Shown here: positions 28,114 through 41,001 of the stretch, in pieces
How positions within the stretch are numbered: position 1 is the stretch's first letter
How the letters are laid out: every line of letters begins with the position of its first letter
Made by a program: the position numbers and the translations under genes
NCBI GenBank assembly: GCA_016841875.1
Contig: JAENYG010000006.1
Coordinates: 124,001-188,000, forward strand
Source of the DNA: Syntrophomonas sp.
Lineage (GTDB): Bacteria; Bacillota; Syntrophomonadia; Syntrophomonadales; Syntrophomonadaceae
Reading direction: 5' to 3'
Length of the DNA: 64,000 nt
The notes under the pieces: generated by a model
The model's database searches: none
Told to the model about the DNA's origin: nothing
The model's input: only the letters and a program-made list of their open reading frames with translations

Positions 28114-28261
28114 ATTTAACTGTGTTCGTCTAGATCTATATATCTAACTCGTACTTTGGAAGATATTTATTGATAGCGATAAAGTATACCCCAGGTCAGT
28201 TTATATACGGTATGATTAGATGGATGGAATTAATTATAGCCATGCTATGGAGGGATTAGAA

Positions 28262-29038
28262 TTGGCAGCAAATGCTAGCAATCTTTACAGTCAGGTTAAT
28301 ATCAATTTATTTAAGGATGGCCGTTTTATAGAAGCAGATGCCCATCTGGTGCGGGAAGAAGAACTATGCGTATTTATTAATGAAACCTATATCTCCACCC
28401 TGGTCTGTTCTCCTGGAGCAGACCGTGAACTAGCATTAGGATTTCTAATCAGTGAAGCTGTTCTCCGCCAGGATAGTGATATTAAATCTATCGATTGCTC
28501 CCAGGGAAGAATTGATATAGTAACTTCCGAGCCCCTGTCGGGAAGTCAATCCGATCAATCATATCTTGAGTTCCGTCAAAAGAGCTCTACCACATTAGAA
28601 AACTTATTGCTCAACCGATCTGCTTCATCAACATTTCAATTCCAGGCTTCCCACCTGCTCAGTTTAATCTTTGAGTTGGACAACCGGGCTCAAACTTTTA
28701 AGATAACCGGTGGGGTACACAGTGCTGCCCTGGCTGACAGCAGGGAGCTTCTGATAAGATATGAGGATATCGGACGCCATAATGCAGTTGATAAAGCCTT
28801 TGGCTATGCTTTTATAAATCAAATATCCTTGTTTGATAAGTGCCTGGTTCTAAGCGGCAGGATATCCAATGAAATTCTGGCCAAAGCAGCACAAAATGGG
28901 ATACCTTTTATTCTTTCCCGTTCTGCCCCAACCTTGCAAGCAGTTCAATGGGCGGAGCAATTGGGAATAACCATGGTGGGATTTGCTCGGGGCAGCCGCT
29001 TCAATGTTTACACTCACCCTGAGCGCATAATTGTATAG
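28262..29038 (+). CDS. fdhD: FdhD, formate dehydrogenase sulfurtransferase / accessory protein
   Basis: 258 residues from TTG 28262, preferred because GGAGG stands eight bases before it; an ATG at 28220 lacks a site. FdhD hands sulfur from the IscS desulfurase to the Mo/W-bis-PGD cofactor. The family pattern is clear: LVREEELCVFINE, ADRELALGFLISEA, TGGVHSAALAD, YEDIGRHNAVDKA, LVLSGRISNEI and ILSRSAPT. The usual CxxC pair in the loop after about residue 105 is not seen; that stretch reads FRQKSSTTLENLLLNRSAS. It sits just upstream of the fdh operon leader, in the same direction. Confidence 0.9.
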   Translation: MAANASNLYSQVNINLFKDGRFIEADAHLVREEELCVFINETYISTLVCSPGADRELALGFLISEAVLRQDSDIKSIDCSQGRIDIVTSEPLSGSQSDQSYLEFRQKSSTTLENLLLNRSASSTFQFQASHLLSLIFELDNRAQTFKITGGVHSAALADSRELLIRYEDIGRHNAVDKAFGYAFINQISLFDKCLVLSGRISNEILAKAAQNGIPFILSRSAPTLQAVQWAEQLGITMVGFARGSRFNVYTHPERIIV

Positions 29039-29203
29039 CTTGAACATTCAGCTCGAGGGGATAATCTTCAAGCCTAAAGCCTTATCAGGGTAGAATCTAA
29101 GACTGCCATTGAATTAAATATTTTATAAAATTTATTGTAACTTTAGCAGGTAAATTACTACCTGGTGCAGAATGGTATATTTGAAAAGAATAATATTTTC
29201 TCC

Positions 29204-29305
29204 GAGCTTTAACATCTAAGGCCTGGCTATGGTGTTTAAGCCTGTGGGTAGATCTGGAAACGGTTCTGCCTCCCGTGTTTGGAAAGGAGTATAGGTTTTA
29301 GCTAC
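29204..29305 (+). promoter_or_regulatory. Moco/Tuco-type riboswitch (first of tandem)
   Basis: Contains the conserved pieces of the molybdenum/tungsten-cofactor riboswitch class: CTGGAAACGG, then GCCTCCC, then TTGGAAAGGAG, within about 100 bases bounded by weakly complementary ends (AGCT-type). The same block with the same spacing recurs at about 29508-29605. It is followed by a terminator at 29353. Identification is by motif from memory; no covariance model was run. Confidence 0.75.
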
Positions 29306-29352
29306 TGATATGTGATTAAAGCTATTTATTAGCTGTGTATTTTAGTTAAATG

Positions 29353-29382
29353 GACCTCCTGTTCAAGCAGGAGGTCTTTGTA
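29353..29382 (+). terminator. Expression-platform terminator of first riboswitch
   Basis: GACCTCCTG pairs with CAGGAGGTC around a short loop, followed by TTTG. The CCTCC arm could also pair with the AAAGGAG block of the aptamer, giving a switch. Confidence 0.7.
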
Positions 29383-29507
29383 GTTAAGACAGGGATATAT
29401 CTCCTAACAGCGTGAGCTGAATATACTGAAAGAGACTACCCTGATAATCAAGTATAATTGAATATTTTTTCAAAAGCTTTGCTCCAAAGCTACTTCACCT
29501 AAAACTT

Positions 29508-29605
29508 CGGTCATGGGGACTTAGCCGACACGGTTTAAAACCGGTACGGTAAATCTGGAAACGGGTTTGCCTCCCTTACTTGGAAAGGAGTCATGGGCCT
29601 GTGAA
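29508..29605 (+). promoter_or_regulatory. Moco/Tuco-type riboswitch (second of tandem)
   Basis: Repeats the conserved blocks of the first copy: TCTGGAAACGGG, TTGCCTCCC, TTGGAAAGGAGT, with different stem sequences, and a CGGTTTAAAACCG hairpin early in the element. The interval to the first aptamer is about 300 bases. A second terminator follows at 29745. Confidence 0.75.
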
Positions 29606-29744
29606 ATTAATTTACGTTACCTGGCTATATGCACAGGTCATGTTCGGTGTGGATTTGTTTATCCTGCACTGTAAATTGCTCATGGGCAAGGGGGAGCGTG
29701 CGTTTGAATATAACACTTGTTCATTATTTACCATGAACTAATGT

Positions 29745-29776
29745 AAACCTCCTCCTGTTCCGGCAGGAGGTTTTTA
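29745..29776 (+). terminator. Expression-platform terminator of second riboswitch
   Basis: AACCTCCT pairs with AGGAGGTT, then T5. It lies 36 bases before the fdhA start. Confidence 0.75.
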
Positions 29777-29811: not shown

Positions 29812-32502
29812 ATGTTGGTGGAAATGGTGAATCTATACATCAATGGGAAGGAGGTAGGAGCTCCAGCGGGGAGCACAATTCTGCAGGCTGCCGAACTAGC
29901 CGGGATACAAATACCACGTCTTTGTTATGACCCGGATTTAAGCGCTCTGGGCGCATGCCGCCTTTGCGTGGTAGAAGTAAAAGGTAATCGACTTTTACCG
30001 GCCTCGTGTGTTACGCCAGTAATGCCGGGTATGGAAGTCTTTACTGAATCCCCTGCAGTAATTGAAGCACGGCGAACCATTCTGGAACTTCTGGTTGCTA
30101 ACCATCCTCTGGATTGCATGACCTGCGATAAACTGGGCGATTGCAAACTGGCAGATTACTGCTACCAGTACGGCATCAAAGAAAGCCCATTTGTTGGAGA
30201 AAAACATGACTATCTGTGTGATGACAGCAACCCATTTATCATCAGAGACCTGAACAAATGCATCCTCTGCGGAGCTTGTGTCAGAGCCTGTGAAGAAATG
30301 ACCGGACAAGACAATCTTTCCTACCTCTACCGCGGTTTTGATAGGAAAGCTACCACGGCTGGCGATGTGCCATATGCCGAATCGGATTGTGTTTTTTGCG
30401 GCCAGTGTGTGGCTGTCTGTCCTACCGGCGCTTTGACCGAAAAAACTATGGCTGGTCAAGCCCGCCGCTGGGAAATAGATCGGGTAAGAACTACCTGTCC
30501 TTTCTGTGGAACCGGGTGTAATTTTGACCTGGCGCTCAAGGATGGAAAGGTAATTGGAGTACTTTCCAACCCGGAAAGTCCTGTAAATGGCCGCAGTCTA
30601 TGTGTTAAGGGCCGTTTTGGCTGGGATTATATCTATAATGAAAAACGTCTCACTACTCCATTGATCAAGAAAAATGGTCAGTTTGAACCAGCCAGTTGGG
30701 ATGAAGCTTACGACCTGATAGCAGCCCGTTTTAATGAGATCAAGAACGAATATGGCCCCGAAAGCTTTGCAGCCCTTAGTTCAGCTCGCTGCACCAATGA
30801 AGAAAATTATCTGGTACAAAAATTTACTCGCGCCTATATGGGAACCAATAACGTTGACCACTGTGCCCGCACGTGACATGCCCCCACCGTGGCCGGTCTG
30901 GCCACCACTTTTGGCAGCGGAGCAATGACTAATCCCATCAGCGATATATCTAATGAGGCAGAATTGATGCTGCTGGTTGGCACCAATACTACTGAAGCAC
31001 ATCCGGTTATTGGCTATAAAATGCGTCAGGCAGCTCGTAAGGGATGTAAAATGGTAGTATGTGACCCTCGCCGGATTGATTTAGTAGATGACGCTGATTA
31101 TTGGTTAAGACATAATCCAGGTACTGACATACCTCTATTAAATGGTATGATGCGTATCATAATTAAGGAAGGCCTGGAAGACAAGCAGTTTGTTGCTGAA
31201 CGCACTGAAAATTATGAAGCACTGAAAGAAACTGTGGAAGCCTATAATCCTGAATATGTATCTGAACTGACTGGCATTTCGGTAGAAGACCTCTATGCAG
31301 TAGCCCGTCTTTACGCTACCACTGATAAGGCTATGATATTCTATACTCTGGGAATTACCGAACATATCTGTGGTACTCGCAATGTTATGAGCATCGCCAA
31401 TCTAGCTATGCTTACCGGCCATGTTGGCAGGCCCGGTACCGGGGTGTGTCCGATACGCGGCCAGAACAATGTACAGGGAGCCTGTGACATGGGAGCCCTG
31501 CCCAACGTTTACCCAGCTTATCAGGCCGTCACCAATGACGAAATAAGGGCTAAATTCGAAAAAGCCTGGGGAGCTTCACTGCCTGGAAACCTGGGATTGA
31601 AGATTCCGGAAATGTTTGAAGAAGCATATGCTGGTAAACTAAAAGCTATGTACATATTGGGTGAAAATCCGGTGTTGACTGATCCCAATGCCAATCATAT
31701 CAAAGCTGCACTGGCAAAGCTTGATTTTCTAGTAGTACAGGAGCTATTTTTGACCGAAACCGCAGCATTCGCAGATGTCATACTCCCAGCAGCTAGTTTC
31801 GCTGAATGTGATGGTACTTTTACCAGTACTGAGCGGCGGGTACAGCGGGTACGTAAAGCCATTGAGCCATTACCCGGTCAGGCCAATTGGGAGACCATCT
31901 GCCAGATGGCAACTAGGTTAGGTTATCCTATGAGCTATGATCATCCCGGACAAATATGGGATGAAATGGCTTCCCTGTCACCATCGATGACTGGCATCAA
32001 TTATGATCGTATTGATAAAATTGGGCTTCATTGGCCTTGTCCCAGTACCGATCATCCAGGAACCCCATTTCTACATGCTGGCAAATTCACCCGGGGACTG
32101 GGTAATTTCCAACCCTCTGATCATATACCACCTGGAGAGATACCGGATGAAGAATATCCATTCCTCCTCTCAACCGGACGTATTCTTTATCACTATAATG
32201 TTACTACTCCTTATTCCAAGGGTATCAACAGCATGTGGGATCGTGAAAAAGCTGAAGTCAACCCGCTGGATGCAGAGAAACTCGGTCTGCAAACCGGCAG
32301 CCGGGCCAAGGTCACTTCTCGGCGCGGAGAGGTTATCAGTGAAATAAAAGTTACCGATCGAGTTATGCCGGGAATGATATGGATGTCATTCCATCATAGT
32401 GCTACACCTACTAATGAAATAACCAGCCATATCCTGGATCCTATTACCGGGACTGGTGAATACAAAGCATGTGCAGTGAAAATAGAAAAGGTCGAGGTGT
32501 AA
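29812..32502 (+). CDS. fdhA: Formate dehydrogenase catalytic subunit, selenocysteine-containing (first copy)
   Basis: 896 residues when TGA at 30874-30876 is read as selenocysteine (codon 355, CART-U-HAPTVAG). The start may be ATG 29812, TTG 29815 or GTG 29818; AAGGAG lies before them. The order of domains is [2Fe-2S] (CYDPDLSALGACRLC), NuoG-type cluster region (CMTCDKLGDC), two [4Fe-4S] clusters (CILCGACVRACE, CVFCGQCVAVCP), then the cofactor domain with CPFCGTGC and the Sec. It interconverts formate and CO2 and would pass electrons to the NuoE/F proteins encoded downstream. Not a pseudogene: frame, domain match and SECIS agree. Confidence 0.92.
30874..30915 (+). promoter_or_regulatory. SECIS element of the first fdhA
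   Basis: Right after the TGA a hairpin forms with GTGGCC/GGCCAC and apical loop GGTCT, the same loop as in the E. coli fdhF SECIS. It recruits SelB for selenocysteine insertion. Confidence 0.85.
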
Positions 32503-32505
32503 AAT

Positions 32506-33534
32506 ATGCGTAGAGTCCCGGTGGAGAATGCGGTGGGTTTGACCCTGGGTCATGATATTACTAGAATAGTACCCCAACGCGAAAAATACTGTGCTTTTTC
32601 CAGAGGCCATATTATAACTGCCGATGATATACCTCGTTTTTTAGAACTGGGTAAAAAGCATATTATGGTCTGGGAACCTGACGATAACCTTATCCATGAA
32701 GATGAAGGGGCCCTGCGGATTGCTAAAGCCGCAGCTGGAAACGGTGTTTATTTTACCCAGCCCAGTCAGGGACGGGTGAATCTAAAGGCGCAGTATGATG
32801 GAGTACTGAAAGTGCAAACTGAACGACTCAATTGGGTAAATAATATTGACAATATAATATTTGCCACCCTGCACAACAACAGCTCAGTATCCAAAGAGCA
32901 GGCCATAGCCGGTACTCGAGTAGTACCTGTAGCCATTGATTGCAATGTGCTGCAGGAGGTGGAAAGACTTTGCTCAGAACCTGCTGCGCTTGTTACCGTG
33001 AAGCCTTATCAACCATTGTGGGTAGCCGTTATAACTACCGGTTCTGAAGTAAATAATGGTTTGATCAAAGATGGTTTTGGCAGAGTAATTCGGCACAAAA
33101 TTATACCCTTCGGAGGGCGCTGGATGAGTCAGGTAACCGTACCAGATGATGCTGACCTAATAGCTCAAGAAATTCAGAACTTTATTGCCGAAGGAGCTCA
33201 GCTAATACTGGTCACTGGCGGTATGTCGGTGGATCCCGATGATGCTACTCCATCAGGAATCAGGCACTCCGGAGCTGAAGTTGTTTTTTACGGGGCACCG
33301 GTACTACCTGGATCACAATTTATGCTGGCCTACCAGGGGACGGTACCTATCTGTGGAATACCAGGAGGAGCTTTGTTCAGCCGCAGAACTACGCTGGATC
33401 TTCTTTTACCGCGTTTATTCTGTGGTGAGGTAGTTTCTCGCGCAGATATCGTCGCACTAGGGCACGGAGGACTCTGCGAGGAATGTAAGGTCTGTCATTA
33501 TCCGCTCTGTCCTTTCGGCAAATCCAGTATATAA
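32506..33534 (+). CDS. Molybdopterin-binding protein (MoaB/MoeA-like) of the fdh operon
   Basis: 342 residues starting three bases after fdhA. The first part (MRRVPVENAVGLTLGHDITR) is the type found in proteins beside Mo/W formate dehydrogenases. The second half carries a MoCF/MogA-like fold: VAVITTGSEVNNG, then LILVTGGMSVDPDDATP. The C-terminus is Cys-rich (CEECKVCHYPLCPFG), a possible Fe-S or zinc knuckle not found in MoeA. Probably handles or inserts the pterin cofactor. Confidence 0.8.
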   Translation: MRRVPVENAVGLTLGHDITRIVPQREKYCAFSRGHIITADDIPRFLELGKKHIMVWEPDDNLIHEDEGALRIAKAAAGNGVYFTQPSQGRVNLKAQYDGVLKVQTERLNWVNNIDNIIFATLHNNSSVSKEQAIAGTRVVPVAIDCNVLQEVERLCSEPAALVTVKPYQPLWVAVITTGSEVNNGLIKDGFGRVIRHKIIPFGGRWMSQVTVPDDADLIAQEIQNFIAEGAQLILVTGGMSVDPDDATPSGIRHSGAEVVFYGAPVLPGSQFMLAYQGTVPICGIPGGALFSRRTTLDLLLPRLFCGEVVSRADIVALGHGGLCEECKVCHYPLCPFGKSSI

Positions 33535-33548
33535 AGGCAGGGTTTATT

Positions 33549-34754
33549 ATGAAGAAAGACCTGAGCATTGAAGAAGCGCAACAGCTAATACTGGAGAATA
33601 TAGATCATCTTCCATCGGAAAGAGTATCCATAATGCAGGCCGCCGGACGCGTTCTGGCTGAAGAGCTGCTGGCTGATAAAAATCTGCCGTCTGCACCCCA
33701 ATCTGCAGTTGATGGGTTTGCTCTGGGTGATGATCAAGCCCCAATTAATACTATTTTTTCATTAAAAAATCATTATGATTTAACTCAAGGAATACTCAGC
33801 AGCGGTGAGGCTGTGAGAGTTGTTACAGGTGGTGAGCTGCAATCCGGAACCCTTTCAGTGATTATGCATGAAAATGTACTGGTTAAAGGTGACACCATAA
33901 GCATACTGGAAGAAATTAAGCCAGGTAACAACATCAAGCAGGCAGGAGAAGATTATCAGCAGGGCAATATACTGGCAAACCATAAAACGCTGCTTTCTTC
34001 AGGTCATATCGGACTACTGGCAGCTTATGGGCATAATGAAGTATTAATATACCAGCGCCCACGAGTTTCCCTTCTCGGCCTGGGGAAAAACGTAATTTCC
34101 TGTTCTCAAACTCCAAAGCGAGGCCAGACTAGAGACAGTAACAACCCTCTATTGGCTGCCCTCATTAACCAGGCGGGAGGCTCGGTAGCAGGATACAAAC
34201 TGGCTTCGGAACTTGAAGAACAAGATTTGATTTGCGGTCTGGATAGTTTAATATCTATGGCAGACTTGATAATAGTAACTGGAGGGACATATGCCGAAAC
34301 ACAGAGCGAGGCTCAAACACTGCTGGAATCTGCAGGTGCCAGTATAATTTACTGGGGTACAGATATTCAACCAGGAAGTCATAATGGCTTAGCACTGTAT
34401 CAATCAAAACCGGTATTTGCCCTGTCTGGAAACCCAGCTGCTTGTGCAGTCGGTTTCAACCTGTTTGTTGTACCTGCCCTGCGCTGCATGCAGGGTTTAT
34501 CCCCCCCACTTAGAAAGGTACAGGCCAGGTGTACCAACGGCTTTAATAAAACAGCCCGTTCACACCGTTTGGTAAGAGGTAAAGTCAGCTATAGCAGCCA
34601 GGGTTGGGAGGTTACCATACTGCCCGGTCAAAAACCCAGTATGCTCAAATCGCTAGTCAACTGTAATGCTCTTATCGACATGCCAGCAGGGCATCCACCG
34701 CTGGAGTCGGGCCAAGAGGTTACTGTGATTCTTTTGGAAACAATATGTGAATGA
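33549..34754 (+). CDS. moeA: MoeA, molybdopterin molybdenumtransferase
   Basis: 401 residues, MoeA-type: N-terminal IEEAQQLILENI, linker QSAVDGFAL, then the MoCF-binding core (LIIVTGGTYAETQS, ALSGNPAACAVGFNLFVVPALR) and a C-terminal beta domain. It inserts Mo or W into molybdopterin using MPT-AMP. Operon order (fdhA, MPT-binding protein, moeA) links it to the FDH's own cofactor supply. Variation from the usual GGxSxG wording at the metal-insertion site (VTGGTYAET) is noted. Confidence 0.88.
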   Translation: MKKDLSIEEAQQLILENIDHLPSERVSIMQAAGRVLAEELLADKNLPSAPQSAVDGFALGDDQAPINTIFSLKNHYDLTQGILSSGEAVRVVTGGELQSGTLSVIMHENVLVKGDTISILEEIKPGNNIKQAGEDYQQGNILANHKTLLSSGHIGLLAAYGHNEVLIYQRPRVSLLGLGKNVISCSQTPKRGQTRDSNNPLLAALINQAGGSVAGYKLASELEEQDLICGLDSLISMADLIIVTGGTYAETQSEAQTLLESAGASIIYWGTDIQPGSHNGLALYQSKPVFALSGNPAACAVGFNLFVVPALRCMQGLSPPLRKVQARCTNGFNKTARSHRLVRGKVSYSSQGWEVTILPGQKPSMLKSLVNCNALIDMPAGHPPLESGQEVTVILLETICE

Positions 34755-34779: not shown

Positions 34780-35226
34780 ATGGCAGACTATAAAGAAATA
34801 GTCGGCGCTTATAAAGAAGTTCCCGGGGGGCTCATAGAAGCCTATCATGCTCTGCAGCGGGAATTTAACTATATACCTGAGGAAGCCGTTGAGGAAGCAG
34901 CACAGATATTCGATATTCCCAAAGCCAAAGCCTATGGGGTAGCCACTTTCTATTCTTATTTCAAGGTAGGTAAACGTGGTAAATATATCATTCGTATTTG
35001 TGAGAGTGCACCCTGCCACATAGCAGGTGCAGCCCAGGTAGTATCTGCCCTGGAAAAAGAACTGGGTATAAAAATGGGTGAAACCACAGCAGACGGCTTA
35101 TTTACTCTGGAATTTACTGAGTGCGTTGGCCAGTGTCAGGCTACTCCCGTTATTACTATTAACAGTAAACCTTATGAAGATCTAACTCCCGATAAAATAA
35201 ATGCCATACTGGCTGAATACAAGTGA
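34780..35226 (+). CDS. NuoE-like [2Fe-2S] subunit of formate dehydrogenase (first copy)
   Basis: 148 residues, a thioredoxin-like [2Fe-2S] protein of the 24 kDa family. The four cluster Cys occur as CESAPC and CVGQC. It would bridge the NuoF-like flavoprotein and the other Fe-S centres. GGAGG precedes the ATG. It has a close paralogue at 40555-41001 in the second cluster. Confidence 0.88.
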   Translation: MADYKEIVGAYKEVPGGLIEAYHALQREFNYIPEEAVEEAAQIFDIPKAKAYGVATFYSYFKVGKRGKYIIRICESAPCHIAGAAQVVSALEKELGIKMGETTADGLFTLEFTECVGQCQATPVITINSKPYEDLTPDKINAILAEYK

Positions 35227-35247: not shown

Positions 35248-36471
35248 ATGGCCGAGGAAATGCGCATTTTAATGCGTAATTATGGAAAAATAGATCCTTT
35301 GAATATTGACGATTATATTAATGCTGGCGGCTATAAAGGACTGGAAAAAGCACGCGCTATGAGCCAGAAGGACTTAATTGCAGAAGTACAAAAATCCGGG
35401 CTGCGCGGTCGCGGCGGCGCAGGATTTAATGCTGGCATGAAGTGGGGTTTCTCTTACAATACTCCGGCTGATCAAAAATATGTAGTCTGTAACGCCGATG
35501 AAGGAGAACCCGGCACTTATAAAGATAGGCTCATTATGGAGAATGATCCTCAGAGTGTTCTGGAAGGCATGGCTGTTTGTGGTTATGCTATTGGTTCCAA
35601 TAAAGGCTATATTTACTGCCGGGGTGAATACCCTTATGTAGTCGAAAAACTCAATACGGCCATAGAGCAGGCTAAAGCCAAAGGTGTCCTGGGAGATTTC
35701 GATATTGAAGTCCGCATGGGAGCCGGTGCCTATGTCTGTGGCGAGGAAAGCGCCCTTATCGAATCCATTGAAGGGCACCGGGGAGAACCCAGATTCAAGC
35801 CGCCTTTCCCACCGGTGACCGGTTTATGGGGTAAACCAACTATTGTTAACAATGTCGAAACCTTTGCCAATATACCATTGATATTAGAAAAGGGTGCTGA
35901 TTGGTTTGCGGGCATAGGAGCCAAGAGTTATCCGGGAACCAAATTGATGACTCTAACCGGAGATGTAGCTAACCGTACTTTTATCGAAGTACCTACGGAT
36001 ACTACCATTCGTCAAGTTATATTTGATTTTGGTGGCGGCATACCAGGCGGCAAAAAGTTTAAAGCAGTACAAATAGGCGGAACATCTGGTGGTTTTATTC
36101 CTGAAAGCCTGCTAGATACTGCTATTGACTTTGATTCCATGGGTGCTATTGGAGCAACCCTGGGATCTGGAGCGGTATTTGTCATGGATGAAAGCAGAGA
36201 TGTAGTAGACGTCATTAACCAGATCACCAAGTTCTTTGAACATGAATCCTGTGGAAAGTGTTCACCCTGTCGTGAAGGTACCAAAAGAATGCATGAGATG
36301 GTTAAGTATATTTACAGTGGACGGGGAACTGCCGCAGACCTGGATCTTCTGGAACGGTTGGGGACCGTAATGAGCAAAGCTTGTCTTTGCGGTCTGGGTC
36401 AGGCAGCTCCCAGCCCTGTATTAACTACTTTACAACATTTTAAGGCTGATTACACCGCCAAGTTTAATTAA
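35248..36471 (+). CDS. NuoF-like flavoprotein subunit of formate dehydrogenase (first copy)
   Basis: 407 residues, the NADH-binding NuoF type without an N-terminal thioredoxin-like domain and without a C-terminal ferredoxin. FMN/NADH features: GLRGRGGAGFNAGMKW, NADEGEPGTYKDR, YVCGEESALIESIEG. A [4Fe-4S] motif CGKCSPCREG is followed by CLCGLGQ. With NuoE and FdhA it would form a formate:NAD(+) or bifurcating complex. The last gene of the operon, followed by a strong terminator. Confidence 0.9.
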   Translation: MAEEMRILMRNYGKIDPLNIDDYINAGGYKGLEKARAMSQKDLIAEVQKSGLRGRGGAGFNAGMKWGFSYNTPADQKYVVCNADEGEPGTYKDRLIMENDPQSVLEGMAVCGYAIGSNKGYIYCRGEYPYVVEKLNTAIEQAKAKGVLGDFDIEVRMGAGAYVCGEESALIESIEGHRGEPRFKPPFPPVTGLWGKPTIVNNVETFANIPLILEKGADWFAGIGAKSYPGTKLMTLTGDVANRTFIEVPTDTTIRQVIFDFGGGIPGGKKFKAVQIGGTSGGFIPESLLDTAIDFDSMGAIGATLGSGAVFVMDESRDVVDVINQITKFFEHESCGKCSPCREGTKRMHEMVKYIYSGRGTAADLDLLERLGTVMSKACLCGLGQAAPSPVLTTLQHFKADYTAKFN

Positions 36472-36593: not shown

Positions 36594-39293
36594 TTATATC
36601 TTTTCCAATCGGGCCGCCGATACTTTATATTCTGGAATTCCCGCCACAGGATCAAGAACATCAGCATTGGTTAAAACATTGGCTGCAGCTTCGGCAAAAT
36701 GGAAATAGGTAAATATTACGTTCTCCCGTATTCCATCTATAACTTCTGCTTTCAGTTCTATGCTTCCCCTGCGAGTAGTTACCCGTACGACTTCTCCACT
36801 TACTATATTCTTCACTTTGGCCAGTTCAGTGTTTATCTGTACCACGTTTTCCGACATATATGCATCCAGGCCTTTAGCCTTCCTGGTCATAGTCCCGGTG
36901 TGATAATGATATAAACTGCGTCCGGTAGTTAAAATAATAGGATACTCTTCATCGGGAACTTCTGCTGGTTCGAGATATTCAATGGCATGGAATAGCCCCA
37001 GCCCTCTATTGAATTTCTCTTTGTGAAGAATCGGGGTTCCCGGATGATCTTCAGTAGGACAGGGCCACGGCAGACCTTTTCCTTCCAGGCGTGCGTATGT
37101 CATACCTGCATAGGAGGGTGTAAGTGTCCTGATTTCTTCAAATATTTCTTCCGCTGAATTATATGACATTGGATAACCTAAGCGGGTAGAGAGCTCACAT
37201 AAAATCTCCCAATCCTGCCTGGCATCACCGATATTGCTGATAGCTTTACGTACTCTCTGCACCCTTCTTTCAGTATTGCTGAAGGTTCCATCTTTCTCTG
37301 CAAAGCTAACTCCAGGCAGTACTACATCGGCTTTCCGGGCGGTTTCGGTCAGGAAGATATCCTGCACCAAAAGAAAATCCAGCTTGTCAAATGCTTCTTC
37401 CACATGATGCAGATCAGGATCACTGACCATAGGATTCTCGCCTACGACTATCAATCCTTTTACTTCACCTTCGTGGGCTTTATTAATGGTCTTGGTCAGG
37501 GTCAGTCCGTTTACTCCCGAAAGTTTTACCCCCCAGGCTTTTTCGAATTTTTCCCGAGCCTCATCATTGGTAACTGCTTGATAAGCAGTAAACACTACCG
37601 GCAAGGCTCCCATATCGCAGGCACCCTGTACGTTATTCTGGCCGCGCAGCGGATTAACCCCGGTTCCCGGTTTACCCAGATTGCCGGTTAATAACGCCAG
37701 GTTACAGCAGCTCTTAACATTATCGGTTCCAGTAGTATGCTGGGTAATACCCATGGCATAACATAATGATGAAGCTTCTGACTCGGCATAGAGATGAGCT
37801 GCTTTTATGATGTCTGCAGCATCAACGCCGCATATTTCAGCCGCTGCTTCCGGTGGATAATTCGCCACAACTTTAGCCATGGCCTCATAGCCTTCAGTTC
37901 TGCTTTCTATGAACTCCCGGTCAGCCAGACCTTCGGATATTATCACGTTCATCATACCATTTAAGAGAGCCACATCGGTACCAGGTTTGAATGGAAGATA
38001 TACATCAGCCATTTCCGCCAGCTCAGTTTTACGCGGGTCGGCTACGACTAATTTAGCTCCGTTTTTCACAACATTCTGCCTGATCTTATAGCCGATAACC
38101 GGATGGTTCTCGGTAGTATTGGTTCCTATCAGGAAAACACATTTAGCATCGCTTTCCAGTTCATTGATGGAATTGGTCATTGCACCACTTCCGAATGCTG
38201 CCCCCAGACCGGCGACAGTAACGGAGTGTCAGAGACGGGCGCAATGGTCCACATTATTGGAACCTATTGCTGCTCTCATTAATTTCTGGGCCAGATAGTT
38301 TTCTTCATTGGTGACCCGGGCCGAAGAAAACATCGACAGTGAATCCGGTCCGTATTTTTCCTTTATCCCCTTAATCTTTTCAGCTGCCAGATCCAGGGCT
38401 TCATCCCAGGAAGCAGGACGAAATTCACCATTCTCTTTAATCAGCGGAGTAGTCAGTCTTTCTGGAGAGTTTACAAAATCCCAGCCAAAACGTCCCTTGA
38501 CACACAGGGCACCACGGTTGACCGGGCTCCATTCTGCATCTCTATTGGAAGTTACGCCAACTATTTTATCGTTCTTAACATTGAGTTCCAAGGTGCATCC
38601 AGTACCGCAGTAGGTGCAGGTGGTTAACACTTTGTCATTTTGCGCTGGCTTACCTTGGCCGGCTGCTATCTTGCTGGTAAGTGCCCCTACCGGACATACC
38701 ATTATACACTGCCCACAGAATACACAGGGGGAATCTTCCAGATTACCATCATAAGCAGTAGCTATATGCGCATGGTGGCCTCGATCCATTACGTTTATCG
38801 CTCTGGCACCGGTAATTTCTTCGCAGGCCCGAACACAGCGTGTACACATAACACATTTATCATAGTCCCGTTCAATAAATGGGTTGGAATCATCTTTAAA
38901 AAGGTTATGGACTTTCCCTGCGAAGCGAGACTCGGTGACTCCATAACGGTAGCAGTAATCCTGCAGATTACATTCTCCATCTTTTTCGCAGGTATGACAG
39001 GTCAATTTATGCCTGGCCAGCATCAGCTCCAAGACTACTTTCCTGGCTTCGACAACGTCCGGGCTTTCGGTTTCAATAACCATACCGTTTTGCGCCGGAG
39101 TAACACAGCTGGCTACCAGGTTGCGCCATCCCTTGGGTTGTACCACACACATCCGGCAGGAGCCGGCCAGTTTTAGATCTGGATCATAACAGAATGTGGG
39201 GATATCTGCTCCTGCTTTACGACAGGCTTCCAAAAGCATAGTACCTTGAGGCACCTCTATCTCTTTACCATCTATAGTTAATTTTATATCCAT
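36594..39293 (-). CDS. fdhA: Formate dehydrogenase catalytic subunit, selenocysteine-containing (second copy)
   Basis: 899 residues on the minus strand when TGA at 38231-38229 is read as selenocysteine, again codon 355 (CARL-U-HSVTVAG). Same domain order as the other copy: [2Fe-2S] CYDPDLKLAGSCRMC, NuoG-type region CHTCEKDGEC, two [4Fe-4S] motifs CVMCTRCVRACE and CVFCGQCIMVCP, then CTYCGTGC. Clearly paralogous to 29812-32502 but diverged. Forms the end of the second operon (NuoE, NuoF, FdhA). Confidence 0.92.
38190..38231 (-). promoter_or_regulatory. SECIS element of the second fdhA
   Basis: Just after the minus-strand TGA, CTGTCGCC/GGGGGCAG form an imperfect stem with loop GGTCT, the same apical loop as the first copy. 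Confidence 0.75.
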
Positions 39294-39313
39294 TTCGTTT
39301 CCCTCCCTTCTAT

Positions 39314-40534
39314 CTACACTAGTTTTCTCAAGTATTCATATTCAAAATGTTCCAGAGTCGAAGTTATCGGAATCGGAGCTGCCTGTCCCAGACCGCATAG
39401 TGATGCTTTCTGCATAATCCGGGCCAGTACTTTGAGGTTCTCAATATCCTTGAGGCTTCCTCTCCCAGTATTAATCCGTTCCATTATCTCTTTGCAGCGG
39501 AAGGTGCCCTCCCGGCAGGGGGTGCACTGACCGCAGGATTCATGTTCAAAGAACTTGGCAATCCGGTTGATTATGTCTACTATATCCCTGCTTTCATCCA
39601 TTACAAATACCGCCCCTGAACCCAGGGCGGCTCCTATAGCACCCATAGAATCAAAATCAATAGGTGTATCAAGGTTTTGAGGTGGGATGAAGGCTCCGGA
39701 GGTACCACCTACCTGAACTGCTTTCAGCTTCTTGCCGCCTTTAACTCCTCCACCCAGTTCATATATTACATCTCGGAGCAGATAATCAGTGGGCACTTCA
39801 AAATAAGTCGGATTTTCAATATCTCCGGTAAGGGTAAGCACCTTGGTTCCAGGATAACTCTTGGCACCTATGCCTGCAAACCAATCTGCACCATTGGTCA
39901 TAATATAGGGCAGACAGGCAAAAGTTTCTACGTTGTTGACTACCGTAGGCATACGCCATAAACCTTCTACTCCTGGAAACGGGGGCTTAAATCTTGGCTC
40001 TCCTCGATGCCCCTCTATAGATTCAATAAGAGCAGTTTCTTCGCCGCATACATAGGCGCCTGCTCCCATACGTACTTCTATATTGAATTCTCCTAGAGCA
40101 CCTGATTCTTTTGCATTCCCAATCGCATTCTTAAGCATCTCTACTACAAACGGATATTCTCCTCTACAATATATGTATCCGTTGTTGGAACCAATAGCAT
40201 GTCCGCAGATGGCCATTCCTTCCAGAAGGGCCTGGGCGTTTTTCTGACATATGATTCTATCTTTATAGGTTCCCGGTTCCCCTTCATCAAAGTTGCATAC
40301 CACATACTTGGTCTCCGGGTACTGGGGTACAAAACTCCATTTCATACCGGCATTAAATCCTGCGCCGCCGCGTCCTCTAAGTCCGGATTTCTTTACTTCA
40401 TCCGTTAAATCCCTGGGATTCATACTGTGGGCCTTTTCCAGACCTTTATAGCCACCGACCTGGATGTAATCGGCTGCGCTTTCAGGATTTATTTTATCGG
40501 CATGTTCAAGCAAAACACGATATTCTTGTGTCAC
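39314..40534 (-). CDS. NuoF-like flavoprotein subunit of formate dehydrogenase (second copy)
   Basis: 406 residues, colinear with 35248-36471: GLRGRGGAGFNAGMKW, NFDEGEPGTYKDR, YVCGEETALIESIEG, CGQCTPCREGT, CGLGQAAP. No N- or C-terminal extensions. Second gene of the minus-strand fdh operon, 20 bases upstream of fdhA. Confidence 0.9.
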   Translation of the reverse strand: MTQEYRVLLEHADKINPESAADYIQVGGYKGLEKAHSMNPRDLTDEVKKSGLRGRGGAGFNAGMKWSFVPQYPETKYVVCNFDEGEPGTYKDRIICQKNAQALLEGMAICGHAIGSNNGYIYCRGEYPFVVEMLKNAIGNAKESGALGEFNIEVRMGAGAYVCGEETALIESIEGHRGEPRFKPPFPGVEGLWRMPTVVNNVETFACLPYIMTNGADWFAGIGAKSYPGTKVLTLTGDIENPTYFEVPTDYLLRDVIYELGGGVKGGKKLKAVQVGGTSGAFIPPQNLDTPIDFDSMGAIGAALGSGAVFVMDESRDIVDIINRIAKFFEHESCGQCTPCREGTFRCKEIMERINTGRGSLKDIENLKVLARIMQKASLCGLGQAAPIPITSTLEHFEYEYLRKLV

Positions 40535-40554
40535 AAAATTCCCCTCCCTTCCTC

Positions 40555-41001
40555 TTATTTGTATCCGGCCAGAATTCCAGGCACCATTTCCGGTTTGACA
40601 TTAAAGACTGGTTCACTGTTTATAGTTACCACCGGGGTAGCCTGACATTGTCCTACACATTCGCTTAACTCCAGGGTAAATTTATTATCAGGAGTTGTTT
40701 CTCCCACTTTAATTCCCAGATAAGCCTCCATTGCTTTTAATACTTCATCCGCTCCGGCAACATGGCAGGGAGCACTTTCACACATACGAATGATATATTT
40801 GCCTCTTTTCTTAACTGAGAGGTAAGAATAGAAAGTTGCTACTCCAAAAGCCTGAGCTTCAGATAATTTGAAAGCTTTAGCTGCTTCCTTCAGGGCTTCT
40901 TCCGGAATATAGTTATACTCCTTTTGGATTGCATGGTAAGCTTCGATGATACCGCCTGGTTTGTCCTTACAGCCGGCGATAATATCCATATAATTGGCCA
41001 C
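40555..41001 (-). CDS. NuoE-like [2Fe-2S] subunit of formate dehydrogenase (second copy)
   Basis: 148 residues from GTG 41001, where GGGAGGG lies six bases upstream. Cluster Cys: CESAPC and CVGQC. First gene of the second fdh operon, and its leader holds a possible structured RNA (41054-41171). Confidence 0.88.
   Translation of the reverse strand: MANYMDIIAGCKDKPGGIIEAYHAIQKEYNYIPEEALKEAAKAFKLSEAQAFGVATFYSYLSVKKRGKYIIRMCESAPCHVAGADEVLKAMEAYLGIKVGETTPDNKFTLELSECVGQCQATPVVTINSEPVFNVKPEMVPGILAGYK

Follow-up and report, generated by a model that had tools for sequence, protein, structure and literature searches.

Tandem riboswitches of the Moco/Tuco (Wco) class (Rfam RF01055) have been described in Syntrophomonas wolfei and Geobacter metallireducens, and S. 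wolfei carries at least 15 elements of the class, including a triple array of elements that lack the P3 stem (Regulski et al., 2008; PMC2408646). It has been proposed that P3-lacking elements respond to the tungsten cofactor and P3-bearing elements to the molybdenum cofactor (PMC2408646); biochemical proof of P3 as the divider was not found in the accessible literature on the class. A 2022 survey files tandem Moco and tandem Wco riboswitches among the systems with identical ligands (PMC9481103). Because both publications document it, the tandem Moco/Tuco arrangement as such is already known, including in S. wolfei. The same survey lists "NOT A AND B" tandems, such as TPP/HMP-PP, in which an OFF switch precedes an ON switch of an unrelated aptamer class (table 2, PMC9481103). 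What keeps molybdenum enzymes and tungsten enzymes distinct in the cell is still an unanswered question.

The pair described here lies in a 64-kb window, the whole stretch of DNA that was analysed, from the 3.97-Mb genome of a Syntrophomonas sp. with 18 RF01055 elements; genomes of the family and order have up to 19 each. The closest named relative, from a search of a named collection, is Syntrophomonas sp. BL5_bin.17 (formate dehydrogenase [FDH] 98% identical). The original prediction was of two successive Moco/Tuco-type elements, of a terminator after each of them, and of a selenocysteine FDH operon downstream, and all of this is borne out (Table 1). The RF01055 covariance model matches both blocks, E1 and E2, at scores well above its gathering score of 36 bits, and these are the only matches in the window. 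All five genomes of the genus retain both aptamers and both terminator-like hairpins. Two other RNA families, STnc70 and nse_sRNA, gave weak sub-threshold matches only, and a short leader peptide after GGGGGAG was rejected on a frame that is not conserved across species (alignment judged by eye).

Table 1. Features of the tandem riboswitch region and the adjoining FDH operon (window positions).
Feature	Position	Strand	Evidence or remark
fdhD, formate dehydrogenase accessory sulfurtransferase, upstream neighbour	28220..29038	+	NCBIfam TIGR00129, 197 bits, above cut-off
E1, RF01055 aptamer without P3	29188..29305	+	88.0 bits, E 4e-20, whole model
E1 P1 5' strand CUCC	29200..29203	+	pairs with GGAG 29286-29289
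E1 P1 3' strand AGGAG; alternative partner of terminator 5' arm (putative antiterminator)	29285..29289	+	
E1 terminator hairpin, weak U tract (UUUGUAGUU)	29352..29377	+	kept in 5 species
TATAAT-like hexamer shortly before E2, candidate internal promoter	29453..29458	+	weak -35 in window
P0 5' strand UUCAAAAGCUUUGCUCC; includes E2 P1 5' strand (29482-29485)	29469..29485	+	
E2, RF01055 aptamer, distinct subclass: junction CUCCAAAGC, P3-like hairpin, CGG at P4 start	29470..29606	+	67.6 bits, E 4e-14, whole model
E2 P3-like hairpin, AC(A)CGGUU-UAA-AACCGGU	29528..29545	+	in 15 sequences, 81% of cells are paired; a single double change, C-G to U-A
Conserved platform block GGGGGAGCGUGCGUUUGAA, which forms the 3' strand of P0 or, through 29690-29696 (opposite 29749-29755), a putative antiterminator	29690..29708	+	
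E2 terminator hairpin (stem 29751-29770) and U run UUUUU	29748..29775	+	
fdhA: formate dehydrogenase alpha after NuoG-like N-terminal domains, with Sec at the in-frame TGA (30874-30876)	29812..32502	+	
Molybdopterin-binding-domain protein (MoCF_biosynth)	32506..33534	+	PF00994
MoeA-like molybdopterin molybdotransferase	33549..34754	+	MoeA_N, MoCF_biosynth, MoeA_C
NuoE-like subunit	34780..35226	+	PF01257; NCBIfam NuoE/FDH gamma models
NuoF-like subunit	35248..36471	+	PF01512, PF10589

The gene context, an FDH operon with a MoeA-like gene downstream, fits the role of RF01055 in controlling genes for the synthesis, transport or use of Mo/W cofactors. The in-frame TGA of fdhA falls at the active site (DHCART-U-HAPTVAGL), and its reading as selenocysteine stands because the genome encodes the decoding machinery (tRNA-Sec, 70 bits; SelB, 371 bits). 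When a SECIS hairpin was sought by folding, the result was not distinguishable from that of shuffled sequences. A second Sec formate dehydrogenase operon with NuoE/NuoF-like genes converges on the first (36594-41001, minus strand; DHCARL-U-HSVT); its FDH is 56% identical to that of the first, and no RF01055 match occurs anywhere upstream of it.

E1 and E2 were also predicted to have shared motifs at equal spacing but different stems. The spacing is equal in the 3' half of the aptamers, where the motifs form a 44-nt direct repeat (86% identity, spaced 301 nt), and unequal elsewhere, E2 being 19 nt longer, mainly through an extra hairpin. A simple tandem duplication was rejected: Tandem Repeats Finder reports none, and E1 and E2 fall in different similarity groups. 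The stems do differ, and they differ at P3, by which the published proposal tells Moco and Tuco sensors apart. In E1 a 3-nt linker (UGU) takes the place of P3, which is absent as in the Tuco-type subtype, and E2 has a bulged hairpin at that place. In its motifs, structure, controlled genes, terminator platforms and P3+/P3- types the pair resembles the described class (PMC2408646); E2 departs from it in an altered junction, in the bulge of its P3-like hairpin, and in a separate antiterminator block that would predict an ON switch.

The conserved RF01055 junction CUCCGAGC does not occur in E2, which we treat as a subclass despite this change because its overall score is well above the cut-off. 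Pattern searches over related genomes, a phylum spread, the order of a Desulfoscipio-like match, and named loci yielded 15 E2-type members. Five belong to the genus; the rest come from four other genera of the family and from two Desulfoscipio-like genomes of a different family, where the element is mostly the only switch before an orthologous FDH. In all 15, CUCCAA(A)GC replaces CUCCGAGC and CGG replaces GGG at the start of P4, and the P3-like stem of the members carries one bulge. By similarity score the group (137-181) is separate from all other elements collected (at most 110). Four pairs changed on both sides across the 15 sequences, including A-U/G-C at 38:45 and C-G/U-A in P3; these covariation counts are modest because E2-type sequences are similar to one another. 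The closest elements outside the group are switches without P3, mostly located before FDH; the hairpin may therefore have been gained within the E2 line and need not mean "Moco," and its homology to canonical P3 is uncertain.

The uniform junction changes and the tight, separate cluster could reflect a different ligand for E2, for example a nucleotide form or precursor of the cofactor. This is improbable, given that E2 retains most of the remaining aptamer motifs (GGAAA loop, GCCUCCC, UUGGAAAGGAG), that the genes are those of FDH, and that a P3-less, FDH-associated element (L074, 2702-2823) has both changes too (CUCCAAGC and CGG). The L074 element is possibly an intermediate between the types. 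In three loci (L205, L206, and L217) an E2-type element with full platform is present and no intact FDH was seen directly after it by eye; L205 and L206 have apparent FDH remnants there. The 15-member subclass is a defined set for studying altered specificity.

For E1, the regulatory platform is simple. The 5' arm of its terminator contains CUCCU, complementary to the AGGAG of P1, and the terminator stem reads GACC..GGUC in some species and GGCC..GGCC in others. The probability of the antiterminator, computed just before the terminator 3' arm emerges, is 0.66-0.77 in the ligand-free RNA and falls to 0 when P1 is locked, in 5/5 species. For the E1 5' flank no other strong partner was found (-5.5 to -7.0 kcal/mol; five species). 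Ligand binding would hold P1, AGGAG could then not pair with the terminator arm, and transcription would stop. These computations support E1 well as a probable OFF switch.

The E2 platform is built differently. In the 15 homologs the distance from the aptamer to a conserved block is 90-106 nt, and that from the block to the U run 69-80 nt. The block is complementary both to the 5' flank together with the P1 5' strand (helix P0, about 14 pairs) and, through GGGGGAG, to CUCCUCC of the terminator arm. Among 11 homologs tested, P0 has energies of -15 to -19 kcal/mol and the block:terminator duplex -9 to -16 kcal/mol. The flank:downstream pairing falls in the best 5% relative to shuffled downstream sequence in 9 of the 11; in L115 and L070 the single best flank partner lies elsewhere than the block. 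Part of the E2 complementarity is automatic, arising from the GGAG/CUCC common to P1 and the terminator. No pair in P0 changed on both sides among the 15 E2-type sequences, and a block pairs no better with its cognate terminator than with a non-cognate one.

Ensemble folding of the growing transcript gives P1 first in the ligand-free RNA (0.97 at 29610), and P0 replaces P1 completely once the block has been made (29710-29740). With the terminator 3' arm half emerged, block:terminator pairing in the window RNA is 0.27, and it rises to 0.86 when P1 is locked; across the 11 homologs locking raised this pairing in eight, left it unchanged in three and lowered it in none. Without ligand, then, the block would displace P1 by capturing its 5' strand in P0, and the terminator would form; with ligand, P1 would hold and the block would be free to pair with the terminator arm, so that transcription would continue. 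Against an ON switch, the window RNA pairs the block with the terminator even without ligand before the 3' arm emerges (0.83), and the tested Moco RNA of Escherichia coli is an OFF switch. In the fully transcribed RNA the terminator is favoured with or without ligand in most homologs, and the sign of E2 therefore depends on kinetics, which would have to favour the block. We regard ON as the likelier sign for E2, with moderate confidence because the complementarity is conserved and covariation is little. If correct, this would be the first ON switch in the class as far as found, as the class has so far been shown only as OFF.

Two OFF switches in series are a somewhat unlikely alternative, by which the E2 block would merely help to open P1 in the ligand-free RNA and the P1 3' strand would then antiterminate, giving a NOR gate with two different ligands and a steeper, digital switch with one and the same ligand. 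The AGGAG:CUCCU complementarity on which it depends is indeed present in E2 as well as in its homologs, at -7.3 to -8.6 kcal/mol, E. coli offers an OFF precedent, and same-sign tandems are the published norm, as in the S. wolfei triple array (PMC2408646; PMC9481103). The P1-strand antiterminator nevertheless has a probability of 0 at every stage computed in every E2 homolog, and block:terminator pairing is stronger. The steeper, same-sign switch suggested in the original prediction is thus not what the two platforms point to: their different construction predicts opposite signs.

The best explanation would be that two transcription-terminating RF01055 riboswitches of opposite sign, E1 OFF and E2 ON, act in series on one FDH operon; we put this forward tentatively, at slightly less than even chances. 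With E1 OFF and E2 ON in this order, the predicted gate is "NOT E1-ligand AND E2-ligand". Such a gate would share its order and truth table with the TPP/HMP-PP type; unlike that type, it would use one aptamer class and separate two almost identical cofactors. If true, the pair is a logic gate absent from the published list (PMC9481103). A single transcript through both aptamers and both terminators is presumed; a candidate internal promoter lies between E1 and E2. Were E2 to have its own promoter at about 29453, E1 would gate only starts further upstream, and the operon would have two independent starts and no series gate. In favour of this, the hexamer lies 11 nt before the P0 strand and reads TATAAT in three of five species and TAGAAT and CATAAT in the others; the poor -35 matches in the window and the low conservation of the rest of the E1-E2 linker make independent starts unlikely.

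Like the arrays of S. wolfei, a relative, and of G. metallireducens, the pair consists of elements in series with their own terminators; the S. wolfei triple array is all P3-lacking, whereas the pair here is mixed and of predicted opposite sign. A hairpin at the P3 position occurs in 6 of the 18 elements of the genome, and each of its remaining tandem arrays is of one type, either P3+ or P3-, as is each of about 20 further arrays in relatives whose sequences were inspected. The mixed P3-/P3+ pair is found in 5/5 genomes of the genus, in the same order and with similar spacing. Tested on the dedicated transporters of this genome, the P3 rule mostly fits, or fits in part: a P3+ pair lies before a ModA operon, and P3- elements before WtpA and TupA, but a P3- element before a second ModA-type gene (L013, 17314-17435) runs against a simple rule of P3+ for Mo and P3- for W.

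On this basis we tentatively infer the tungsten cofactor as the ligand of E1 and the molybdenum cofactor as that of E2. With these ligands, the operon would be made only when the molybdenum cofactor is present and the tungsten cofactor scarce. A one-class gate of this kind, Wco OFF plus Moco ON, would compare the two cofactors and allow FDH synthesis only with the right metal; it corresponds to the two-input reading of the original prediction, and we consider it rather unlikely. The same OFF and ON signs with one cofactor bound at different affinities would instead form a band-pass, with expression only at intermediate cofactor levels. The core of E2 is closest to P3-less FDH switches and not to canonical P3+ elements, so the hairpin may not mean a different ligand; P3 presence is the published mark of ligand type, however, and P3+ and P3- elements mostly sort with Mo and W transporters here, which leaves the band-pass a quite unlikely reading. 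A natural, conserved and presumably single transcript with both types before one metal-dependent enzyme would allow the P3 proposal and the separation of Mo from W enzymes to be studied on one RNA.

Further arrays were observed during these comparisons. In the genome of the window (C21), a triple P3+ array (L009, 6509-7259) lies before an S-layer-homology (SLH) protein and a Fn3-type protein, and P3-lacking elements lie before other SLH or Big_5 surface proteins (L009, 19655-19774; L013, position 4629). Before FDH orthologs, four elements in series occur in two other genera (L057, 839-1590; L055, 3369-4147), the latter locus with two divergent elements on the other strand besides. In S. wolfei subsp. 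methylbutyratica (L121, 2762-3352), two intact elements and then a degenerate third (47 bits in model R1) precede the orthologous FDH. A further orthologous FDH gene follows a series of five RF01055-type elements (L132, 890-1901; contig JAQUGU010000228.1); the last two of the five are identical over 102 nt, which may be an assembly duplication.
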